Below, in pieces: positions 39,867 through 58,131 of a stretch of DNA of 64,000 nt (its first letter is position 1; every line of letters begins with the position of its first letter). Made by a program: the position numbers and the translations under genes. The notes under the pieces were generated by a model. The model was given only the letters and a program-made list of their open reading frames with translations. It made no database searches and was not told where the DNA came from. The stretch comes from Euryarchaeota archaeon SM23-78 (GTDB lineage: Archaea; Nanobdellota; Nanobdellia; Woesearchaeales; SM23-78): contig LSSJ01000005.1 of the NCBI GenBank assembly GCA_001595785.1, positions 1 through 64,000 of the forward strand, in the 5' to 3' direction.

Positions 39867-39979
39867 TGGGACTGCGAGGATTCGAACCCCGGTCACATGG
39901 CCCCGAACCATGGATGATAGTTGCTGCAAGAAACCTCAAAAACTGAGGTTTTTGTTGTTCCAAACTACACTACAGTCCC
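39867..39979 (-). tRNA. tRNA-Pro(CGG) with 40-nt D-loop insertion/intron (39920-39959)
   Basis: Acceptor GGGACTG/CAGTCCC; anticodon arm CATGG-TTCGGGG-CCATG; T-arm CGGGG-TTCGAAT-CCTCG. Confidence 0.9.
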
Positions 39980-39980
39980 A

Positions 39981-40052
39981 TGGACTCGACGGGAATCGCG
40001 CCCGTGGTCTCTGCCGTGCGAAGGCAGTGCTTTACTACTAAGCTACGAGCCC
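39981..40052 (-). tRNA. tRNA-Ala(CGC), atypical elbow
   Basis: Acceptor GGGCTCG/CGAGTCC with G3-U70; CTGCC-TTCGCAC-GGCAG; T-loop CGCGATT. Confidence 0.88.
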
Positions 40053-45760: not shown

Positions 45761-45871
45761 TAGCCCTGCCCGGATTCGAACCGAGGTCACCAGGTTTCTC
45801 TAAGCTTGTTGACCTTTCTGCAAACAGAAAATTCCAGAGCCTGATATGTTTGGCCACTACACCACAGGGCT
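45761..45871 (-). tRNA. tRNA-Gln(CTG) with 38-nt canonical 37/38 intron (45796-45833)
   Basis: AGCCCTG/CAGGGCT; TCAGG-CTCTGG|A-CCTGG; BHB central helix CTCT/AGAG with bulges GG|A and AA|A. Confidence 0.92.
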
Positions 45872-54860: not shown

Positions 54861-55409
54861 TCACTGTGTTTCCAACCACTTCCTAAACTCTTCAAAAGCC
54901 AGTCTTCTATGAGAAATCTTGTTTTTTTCCTCAATCCTCATCTCAGCAAAAGCCTTGTCATAGCCTTCGGGCATGAATATCTGGTCCCATTGAAAGCGAG
55001 TACTGCCTTTAGGAGGCACTATAAGGCCTTTAACCTTACCTTGGAATACCATTGGCTTTTTACCAGCTTCACAAAAACCAATACTGGCAACAGCAACAGC
55101 GCCCCTGTCCTCATACTTGTTGGCAAGCTCATAAAGCCCTGGTATGCCTATTTTCTCAACAAAAGCCTTTATGTAAGGACCTGGTAAGCCTTTAAGCGCA
55201 TTAAAGCAGAGACAAGTGTCTTCTACAAACACTGTTTTTCCAGTCTTATCAGCTGCTAGCTTGGCTTTTTCCTTAACAATATCATCAGGCTCTCCTTGTA
55301 ACTCTGGCAGATCAACCTCTATTTGCTCTACTTCAAAACCTTCTAATATCTCTTTGACTTCTCTATATTTCTCCTTATTGCCAGTTACAAAAAATATCTT
55401 CATGTTCAC
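54861..55409 (-). CDS. RdgB/HAM1 XTP/dITP pyrophosphatase
   Basis: FVTGNKEKYREVKEIL ... VFVEDTCLCFNALKGLPGPYIK. Confidence 0.93.
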   Translation of the reverse strand: MNMKIFFVTGNKEKYREVKEILEGFEVEQIEVDLPELQGEPDDIVKEKAKLAADKTGKTVFVEDTCLCFNALKGLPGPYIKAFVEKIGIPGLYELANKYEDRGAVAVASIGFCEAGKKPMVFQGKVKGLIVPPKGSTRFQWDQIFMPEGYDKAFAEMRIEEKNKISHRRLAFEEFRKWLETQ

Positions 55410-56278
55410 TCAGGCACTCCTATTACTACAATAATATTCTCTCCTTCGATTAGCTCTTCCTTAGGAATAACTATCCTGTTCCTCTTCTTCTTAACCCCAC
55501 CTGTGTACATTTCCTTGTCATTCACAAGAACCACTATTAATCCATTAGCATCAGCATCAAAATAAAAGGTTAAGTCCTGTACTAAATCTCTTTTATCCAA
55601 CCTTACCTGGTATTCTTGATAATTCATTATACTAGCATCAGAGAATGATTTAAGAGTAATCTCTTTATCAGGGTCTACAGGCAGAAACTCTATGTCTAGA
55701 AAACTCTTATTATTACTGGTGTTATCAGAGTAGAAAGACTCTAGGTTTATATCTGAGACCATGTATGACTTATTAACAATTGACCTCATAGTAAAGGTGT
55801 TTCTTCCAAAAACCAAGAACCCAGCATCAATAGGCACCTTGTTCTGCTCATTACATACAGGATTATTATTGAATATCTCTCTGCCACCTACATCTACGAA
55901 TATCTCTGTATCAGAGGAATCACATTTAGGAGTGAATAATAGAGAAGCGCTTTCAAGCCTATCATACTCATCATTCACATAATAAAAGTTGAACCTCTGC
56001 TCACTACCCCCTATGTCTTTTTGCAATATCTTTACATTATCCAGGAAAACCTCAATAGGCTCATGACTACACTCTTCATCACAAACAGGGCATTTAGGAC
56101 ATTCGGGTTCTTCACAAGGAGGACATTCAGGTTTTTCTAACTCTACATCAGATACATTCTCACTTTGATTAGCAGAAACATTGTCCTCAACAACAACAGT
56201 CTTACCACAGCCAACAGCTAACAACAAAAAGACTACTAATAAACCAAATAAGAGAAGTGCAACCCTAATTTTTACCAC
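55406..56278 (-). CDS. lipoprotein, Cys/Pro-rich N-terminus
   Basis: LLLAVGC lipobox; CPPCEEPECPKCPVCDEEC. Confidence 0.65.
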   Translation of the reverse strand: MVKIRVALLLFGLLVVFLLLAVGCGKTVVVEDNVSANQSENVSDVELEKPECPPCEEPECPKCPVCDEECSHEPIEVFLDNVKILQKDIGGSEQRFNFYYVNDEYDRLESASLLFTPKCDSSDTEIFVDVGGREIFNNNPVCNEQNKVPIDAGFLVFGRNTFTMRSIVNKSYMVSDINLESFYSDNTSNNKSFLDIEFLPVDPDKEITLKSFSDASIMNYQEYQVRLDKRDLVQDLTFYFDADANGLIVVLVNDKEMYTGGVKKKRNRIVIPKEELIEGENIIVVIGVPE

Positions 56279-56337: not shown

Positions 56338-56514
56338 TGGGCCCGGCCGGACTTTCGTAACATATCACAGTGCTAGCGAAACCAATATTTCTTGTATAAA
56401 TGTTGAGCTCGCTCTATGCACCGGACTTCATGTTATTCGAACCGGCGTCTCCTGGTATCCTCTTAGCAAGCCAAGCCGAAGCCAAGCGCGCTCTCCAGAC
56501 TACACCACGAGCCC
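56338..56514 (-). tRNA. tRNA-Arg(TCG) with two introns (19 nt at 37/38; 84 nt in T-loop at 56352-56435)
   Basis: GGGCTCG/CGGGCCC acceptor; CTTGG-CTTCGG|A-CCAGG; GCCGG-TTCGAA|T-CCGGC; both junctions fold as BHB. Confidence 0.9.
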
Positions 56515-57281
56515 TAGTATAATAACCTTGGATGCAGTTCTCCTTTTAAAATTCTTCGTCTTTGTTGAGAATTTGTATTTGAAGGGCAAAAACCAAACTT
56601 CTTCCAAATTAAGAATTTTGAATATTTCGTTGGATTCTTCATTCCAATCATATTTAACCAAGCATTTAAGTTAGTTTTACCATAAAGAGCTATTATATAT
56701 CTTAAATTTTCATTACCTCTTTTAGGTTGATAATTATAAATACTCAACTTAAATCCAACTAAAATGAGTACTTTTTGTAAATCCTTAAAAAGTTTAGAAG
56801 ATACTGTGCTAAAAATAATTCTTGGATAACAATGTCTTGTTTTGTTAAATTCAGAATAATTTCCATATTGTTTGGTAAAGTTTAGACAGCCATCAGTATC
56901 AAAATATCCTCTTAGAAAATAAGGAATTAAAGAAATGTCTTCTCGTATAAACTTTGGAACACCAATTATTAATGATTTGCTGCCATAAGGAAAACCAATT
57001 TGCTCATGCATAAATTTAATGACTTTGATATCCCTAATAACAAAACCATAAGTACTCCTGCTAGGAAAAAATCTTCCTTTTATGTCCGGATTAAAAACCT
57101 TATTAAAAAGAGGAATAACATGAGTGTCATAATATTCTTTTTCTTCATAACCACCACTTATATCTAACTCTTTCCTTCTTCCATCATTTCTTAAATAACC
57201 GTCCCCAACATGAATCCCACAGATTTCAGCCAATTCTCTAATTAAGATAAATTTTTTGAAATCGTTTTTTGTCGAAATCAT
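56514..57281 (-). CDS. LAGLIDADG homing endonuclease
   Basis: LAEICGIHVGDGYLR and FLRGYFDTDGCL motifs; stop codon shares a base with tRNA-Arg G1. Confidence 0.9.
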   Translation of the reverse strand: MISTKNDFKKFILIRELAEICGIHVGDGYLRNDGRRKELDISGGYEEKEYYDTHVIPLFNKVFNPDIKGRFFPSRSTYGFVIRDIKVIKFMHEQIGFPYGSKSLIIGVPKFIREDISLIPYFLRGYFDTDGCLNFTKQYGNYSEFNKTRHCYPRIIFSTVSSKLFKDLQKVLILVGFKLSIYNYQPKRGNENLRYIIALYGKTNLNAWLNMIGMKNPTKYSKFLIWKKFGFCPSNTNSQQRRRILKGELHPRLLY

Positions 57282-57515: not shown

Positions 57516-57776
57516 TTATTCGAGTTCAATAATCCAATGACCATACTTATCAATGTCTTCTGGCGTGTTAAAATCAGTTAGTCTTACTTTGTTAAGGTTC
57601 TTTACTTTCTTCTTCAAGACTCGTCCCGTGTACTTCTTAGTCTTAGGGTCGTACTCCTCCAGCACCAAGGTATCTCCTTCTTTTACTTTAAAATCTGCTA
57701 CTCGCACATCAGCATTCTTTTTTCCGTCAAGCATGCCTTGAAACTGCTCTGGCCAAGACTTCTTTTTTATCTCCAT
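57516..57776 (-). CDS. ASCH/DUF3850-like protein
   Basis: WPEQFQGMLDGKKNADVRVADFKVKEGDTLVLEEYD. Confidence 0.7.
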   Translation of the reverse strand: MEIKKKSWPEQFQGMLDGKKNADVRVADFKVKEGDTLVLEEYDPKTKKYTGRVLKKKVKNLNKVRLTDFNTPEDIDKYGHWIIELE

Positions 57777-57849
57777 GCAAGAACAGGAATACTCTGAATA
57801 TATAAATCTTTTTAACAAATATACAGTAAGAAAAAGAATAAAAAAACAC

Positions 57850-58131
57850 TTATTTTTTTGCCAGTGTAATCTCAATTGTGGATACTCGTACGTCTCGGTC
57901 TTCCTTGTTCTTGAACTCTTCTGAGTCAATAGCTATCCCTTTTAGTTCTATCTGGTCTTTCATAAATCTCTTCATAGCCACTTCAGATACATCCACTGCT
58001 CTGCTAATGAATTTTCCCCTTGCCTTCACTATCACTTCTTTTGCGCCTTTGGTTGTGAACTGCACTACAACGCTTGTAACATAGTTCATGAACGGCTTGT
58101 TTCCAATAAAGATTGAGTTGTCCTCTGCCAT
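57850..58131 (-). CDS. albA: Alba DNA/RNA-binding chromatin protein
   Basis: IFIGNKPFMNYVTSVVVQFTTKGAKEVIVKARGKFISRAVDVSE. Confidence 0.93.
   Translation of the reverse strand: MAEDNSIFIGNKPFMNYVTSVVVQFTTKGAKEVIVKARGKFISRAVDVSEVAMKRFMKDQIELKGIAIDSEEFKNKEDRDVRVSTIEITLAKK

Follow-up and report, generated by a model that had tools for sequence, protein, structure and literature searches.

A twice-interrupted tRNA-Arg(TCG) gene abutting a putative free-standing LAGLIDADG homing endonuclease in a Woesearchaeales genome

On a contig of Euryarchaeota archaeon SM23-78, a tRNA-Arg gene that seems to be broken twice lies directly against a gene for a LAGLIDADG endonuclease, which raises the question of whether the tRNA is a working gene and of what connects it to its neighbor. 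The stretch considered here, called the window, comprises positions 1 to 64,000 of that contig and belongs to a fragmented, 90%-complete MAG of 1.48 Mb in 47 contigs (G000). The best explanation of the whole locus, to which a probability of about 0.72 is given, is a working, twice-interrupted tRNA gene beside a free-standing, tRNA-specialized homing endonuclease.

The pre-tRNA-Arg(TCG), as read from the sequence, spans 177 nt of the minus strand (56514-56338). A threading script that places a sequence on the tRNA fold, with introns permitted in the D, anticodon and T arms, gave as its best unbiased solution a 19-nt intron at the canonical position 37/38 and an 84-nt intron in the T-loop at position 59/60, with the anticodon TCG. 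In this solution, exon 1 (nt 1-37; 56476..56514, with the anticodon at 56479-56477), intron 1 (56457..56475), exon 2 (nt 38-59; 56436..56456), intron 2 (56352..56435) and exon 3 (nt 60-73; 56338..56351, TCCGGCCGGGCCCA) follow each other on the minus strand, and removal of both introns restores a standard tRNA, GGGCTCGTGGTGTAGTCTGGAGAGCGCGCTTGGCTTCGGACCAGGAGACGCCGGTTCGAATCCGGCCGGGCCCA. These are the two interruptions, the 84-nt T-loop intron and the cut positions that a first-pass annotation had proposed from the sequence, without naming a strand. The BHB motif was found at both splice sites of the tRNA introns. Intron 1 has a central helix CTTC/GAGG and an inner helix TTGG/CTAA (BHB helix scores of 9/8/9 in the threading), and intron 2 an outer helix GCCGG/CCGGC, a central helix TTCG/CGAA and an inner helix TAACAT/ATGTTA. 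The minimum-energy fold of the T-arm contains TTCG/CGAA, an AA bulge of 2 nt, TAACAT/ATGTTA and an AGT bulge of 3 nt. Because the first T of the 59/60 intron is able to pair with A, the 5' bulge can be 2 or 3 nt and the BHB is slightly relaxed; the helices proposed earlier for the T-loop hold, and the 5' bulge proposed there as AA|T is to be read as 2 or 3 nt.

Intron 2 is further supported by shuffling and by a homolog in a congener, described below. When the 5' half of the T-arm was held constant and the remaining sequence shuffled, the real T-arm and acceptor scored 49, compared with 44 for the best shuffle and a mean of 25.5, and none of 2000 shuffles did as well. The central and inner helices of the 59/60 intron were equaled in 0/20000 shuffles of the intron. 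Introns are common in this genome, where the majority of the detected tRNAs bear them, and 53/54, 30/31 and the D-arm are among the places in which they occur. Within the window, a tRNA-Gln(CTG) gene (45761-45871, minus strand) has a 38-nt intron at 37/38, and tRNA-Ala(CGC) and tRNA-Pro(CGG) genes lie one base apart (39867-40052, minus strand), the Pro gene with a 41-nt insert in its D-arm. A separate intact tRNA-Arg(TCG), which would have undercut the earlier annotation, was not detected in this fragmented, 90%-complete MAG.

The genome encodes one EndA of 217 aa and an RtcB (E=2.5e-174). Across the order, an EndA family match was present in 116/120 genomes, exactly one in 112 of the 116, and in most genomes it is a single gene of ~180-220 aa with no second subunit gene. 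This gene content suggests an alpha4-type enzyme for the order; the alpha/epsilon type, named in the first-pass annotation as something to look for, finds no counterpart here, since a single EndA of 217 aa has the size expected for alpha4. The apparent combination, in one order, of a single alpha4-size EndA with many non-canonical introns is relevant to how stringent this type of enzyme is. Non-canonical BHB introns of Thermoproteales, Nanoarchaeota and Asgard archaea likewise occur several per tRNA, use BHB splice sites and include position 59/60 among those listed (PMC4090602), and very high intron loads are reported from wetland Asgard genomes (PMC11291895). What differs here is an order with a single ~180-220 aa EndA in most genomes, together with the abutting LAGLIDADG gene. 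Because position 59/60 is among the known archaeal tRNA intron positions (PMC4090602), and endonuclease-free 59/60 introns are also found in tRNA-iMet elsewhere in the order, the 59/60 intron of the window is of a known kind. The tRNA-Arg(TCG) gene with its two BHB introns is real, and splicing of its precursor in vivo would be expected from this structure.

The neighbor is an ORF of 255 aa (56514..57281, minus strand) that matches LAGLIDADG_3 (PF14528, E=1.4e-7), and its TAG stop overlaps the tRNA by one base, the final G being tRNA nucleotide 1. It contains two LAGLIDADG motifs, and the catalytic acids D27 and D128, and likewise D130, are invariant in 17/17 relatives. Its AlphaFold2 model has a pLDDT of 92.4. 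The top Foldseek match in the PDB is I-Tsp061I (E=3e-10), the TliVMA intein and I-DmoI come next, and the bI3 maturase and a bifunctional endonuclease/splicing factor are also among the matches; phmmer against the PDB gave no useful match. I-Tsp061I and I-DmoI, which are intron-encoded, are alike in fold, in their two LAGLIDADG motifs and in their conserved catalytic acids. However, they reside in rRNA introns, whereas the ORF of the window lies outside both introns, flanks a tRNA and ends in a conserved C-terminal tail, IWKKFGFCPP..QR..IL.G.L.P..Y. It is thus not an intron-encoded (I- type) enzyme, as it lies outside the introns and ends at tRNA nt 1; it is free-standing, being tRNA-adjacent and absent from related alleles, and the tRNA is its putative target. 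Its last codons contain TTTTAAAA (56544..56551, minus strand), a candidate TATA box at -37..-30 of the tRNA. In the clade associated with tRNA-Arg(TCG), a TATA-like run formed by the codons of the C-terminal IL.G stands ~30-37 nt before the tRNA, and TATA-like TATTTAAAAA is found at similar spacing in endonuclease-free congeners. This run may act as the tRNA promoter.

To what extent the intron and the endonuclease share a history can be judged from the same locus in congeners, located via the neighboring Alba gene (upstream syntenic flank, 57853..58131 of the window, minus strand). The downstream flank is a gene for a Ham1-like NTP pyrophosphatase (54861..55409, minus strand). In G002, G003, G004 and G005, the tRNA lies about 80-170 nt after Alba, and no endonuclease accompanies it there. 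In G003, the same tRNA carries an 81-nt 59/60 intron (L320) homologous to that of the window: the two have the same GTTACGAAAG ending and an internal GGTGCAnAGAGC in common, their 3' exons are identical, and one inner-helix pair is A-T in G000 and T-A in G003, a compensatory change of both sides. G004 has a different 59/60 intron of 45 nt and a 37/38 intron, and G005 a 37/38 intron only. The syntenic tRNA-Arg(TCG) of G002 (L292/L319, G002:C15:776-847), in the order Alba-tRNA-Ham1 with Ham1 directly after the tRNA, is intronless and has a body unlike that of the congeners; it looks as though the gene as a whole had been exchanged. Two further ORFs of the window, a DUF3850 ORF and a lipoprotein-like one (57519-57929 and 55406-56278, minus strand), lie between Alba and Ham1, an interval that in G002 contains nothing but the tRNA. 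Because the syntenic tRNA of G003 and G004 also bears a 59/60 intron, with no endonuclease beside it, the T-loop intron is independent of the endonuclease, and the two were not acquired together. On this comparison, the 59/60 intron is old in the genus and inherited with the tRNA. The idea of a fossil 3' half within the intron was rejected as well, as GGTGCAtAGAGC is kept in the G003 intron with no acceptor match there.

The tRNA neighbor is not peculiar to this genome. Relatives of the endonuclease were gathered as 18 loci from GTDB contigs and from 353 genomes of the order, where they are sporadic (83/353 at E<=1e-20). The C-terminal side faces a threaded tRNA in at least 72 of 104 distinct loci, with a median distance of 2.5 nt in the closest group, and the tRNA faced may be on either strand. 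The threading finder placed no tRNA beside 32/104 relatives; for some of these a tRNA was recovered with Rfam (L023, L033), and others have one on the N-side (L029, L061). When both sides were searched at 44 loci, the tRNA was on the C-side in 29 and on the N-side in 3. The clade of the window flanks tRNA-Arg(TCG) in 15/15 distinct members, the window included, and the tRNAs facing other clades are iMet, Gln or Arg(TCT). In a tree of 97 rows, 50 of them with isoacceptor labels, Arg(TCG), iMet and Gln(TTG) each form a single branch (SH-aLRT 99, 99 and 65, respectively), Arg(TCT) and Asn are clustered with 3 changes needed for each, and the 16 tRNA labels require 18 changes vs 34.1 in shuffles. 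Several threaded intron positions in distant relatives, of class II or of the 'D-arm after nt 1' type, were unreliable and were excluded. The pairing with an endonuclease, which had been considered unusual, is the rule within this endonuclease family. A viral origin was rejected, since viral contigs yielded only distant, generic LAGLIDADG matches and no vector. In-frame stops in L024, L039, L051 and other relatives are consistent with decay of the endonuclease in some genomes. The genome of the window also has a second, distant LAGLIDADG gene facing a tRNA (L155, G000:C23:38806-39435), 12 nt from a tRNA-Trp(CCA) with apparent introns at 37/38 (61 nt), at 53/54 (29 nt) and in the D-arm. In the open-access literature covered, no account was found of LAGLIDADG genes that abut tRNA genes in archaea, and the tRNA-specialized homing endonuclease family appears to be undescribed so far. 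The novelty lies in the neighboring endonuclease and its family, not in the tRNA introns.

How such a gene could persist against an essential tRNA may be pictured as follows. Both BHB introns would be cut out by EndA and the exons joined by RtcB. The endonuclease would most likely cut the homologous tRNA locus in cells that lack it, and when the break is repaired from the carrier, the endonuclease and part of the adjoining tRNA would be copied in, a case of intronless homing with co-conversion. As its 3' end stops at tRNA nt 1 and supplies the TATA-like box, the tRNA could still be transcribed. This picture builds on features visible in the compared sequences, namely the tRNA anatomy, the conserved intron, the tRNA adjacency, the clade-per-tRNA pattern, the catalytic acids and fold and the gene-free syntenic sites, from which we infer the cleavage site and homing. 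The mature tRNAs of G000 and G003 differ at 8 positions, all in nt 1-26, and are identical over the rest. Of these differences, 7/8 set G000 apart from G003, G004 and G005 alike, and the mature tRNAs of G003 and G004 differ along their whole length. That 7/7 G000-specific substitutions fall in nt 1-26 has a probability of ~7e-4 if they are placed at random, a figure calculated post hoc. This cluster beside the endonuclease would fit a short co-conversion tract from the endonuclease side. It could also be ordinary drift with compensation in the stems, and the search for a donor with the tRNA 5' half of G000 found none.

Each part of the main reading can be construed differently. The tRNA might be a decaying pseudogene with an unspliced T-loop insert, or its true 3' end might be CGAGCTCA at 56404, the end favored by the tRNA-Arg covariance model; the gene at 56514-56338 was also missed by ARAGORN and by Rfam RF00005. 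However, it is the sole tRNA-Arg(TCG) detected in the genome, its exons beyond nt 26 are identical to those of G003, and the intron ends and inner helix are conserved with compensation. The 56404 end is rejected because the same stretch is conserved in G003, where it aligns to the interior of the intron. Altogether, a pseudogene or an end at 56404 is very improbable. A role of the LAGLIDADG protein as a maturase, or as an RNA-binding aid to splicing of the neighboring pre-tRNA, instead of in DNA homing, would agree with the maturase and splicing-factor matches of its fold and with the particular intron positions that several clades accompany. Such a role is improbable all the same, as both acids of DNA cleavage are invariant, endonuclease-free congeners retain their 59/60 introns, some flanked tRNAs are intronless, and the distribution in the order is sporadic. 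Adjacency to the tRNA might also be passive, tRNA ends being common insertion points that imply no target specificity. It is known that tRNA genes are integration targets (PMC4390854), and the DUF3850 and lipoprotein-like ORFs also lie in the stretch between Alba and Ham1 where G002 has only the tRNA. We regard passive insertion as unlikely, though less so than a maturase role, because the clades track tRNA identity across many families, the C-terminal side faces the tRNA whichever way the tRNA is oriented, and neither an integrase nor a duplicated tRNA end was noticed at the locus.

The preferred reading, a working tRNA beside a tRNA-specialized homing endonuclease, leads to the question of whether the endonucleases also mobilize non-canonical introns, such that an intron splits the recognition site and shields its carrier and both are copied into intronless tRNAs. 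Among tRNA-iMet genes of 69 genomes, found via the anticodon arm irrespective of T-arm introns, a T-arm intron is present in all 5 genes that an endonuclease faces and in 8/64 of the others (p=1e-4), and the 53/54 intron in 4/5 vs 1/64. The sample leaves out L207 (G335), fetched because its endonuclease was already known; for the other 39 fetched loci, the list was followed approximately in its own order and not by a strictly random draw. L190 is counted here as having an intron of the 59/60 type, which bears an additional insert. Intron positions are also specific to clades, with 28/29 in Arg(TCT), 53/54 in iMet and often 53/54 in Asn. Of the tRNA-Arg(TCG) genes with an endonuclease, 13/15 have an anticodon-arm intron, and the ratio of anticodon-arm to D-arm introns is 13:5, vs 4:14 in endonuclease-free intron-bearing genes (p=0.007), a comparison sample picked by covariance-model score and not unbiased. 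However, the 59/60 intron of the window is common to endonuclease-free congeners, endonuclease-free tRNA-Arg(TCG) genes often bear introns, and L022 and L098 are tRNA-Arg(TCG) genes with an endonuclease and no intron. The association of introns with endonucleases is suggestive and clade-specific, not proof, and it fails for the window's own 59/60 intron; mobilization is less likely than not. We hold with the same reserve, as a tentative proposal, the wider hypothesis of a DPANN family of tRNA-specialized LAGLIDADG enzymes, one lineage per tRNA, that would spread by cutting tRNA genes and thereby drive both the exchange of tRNA segments and the acquisition and fixation of target-disrupting non-canonical introns.

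SegB of phage T4 is the nearest functional precedent. It too is free-standing among tRNA genes, and its intronless homing drives inheritance of the tRNA region (PMC2988022), but it is a phage-borne enzyme of the GIY-YIG family that cuts an intergenic tRNA region and is not homologous. The model for tRNA-Thr of Caldiarchaeum likewise has mobile DNA disrupting tRNA genes and creating introns (PMC3293823), but that element has a DNA recombinase and a plasmid-like composition and no LAGLIDADG endonuclease. Archaeal tRNA introns spread between tRNA genes, and the mechanism of transposition is called unknown in a 2014 review (PMC4090602); if the wider hypothesis is true, the tRNA-specialized family would supply a mechanism for this spread. 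It has also been proposed that interruptions in tRNA genes guard against mobile elements (PMC4390854). With lineages that each sit beside one tRNA, some of them tracking a fixed intron position, the ideas of intron spread and of protection become directly testable, and the family offers natural enzymes that are likely to recognize tRNA genes. A family of endonucleases adjacent to tRNA genes may be relevant to the invasion and reshaping of tRNA genes in archaea.
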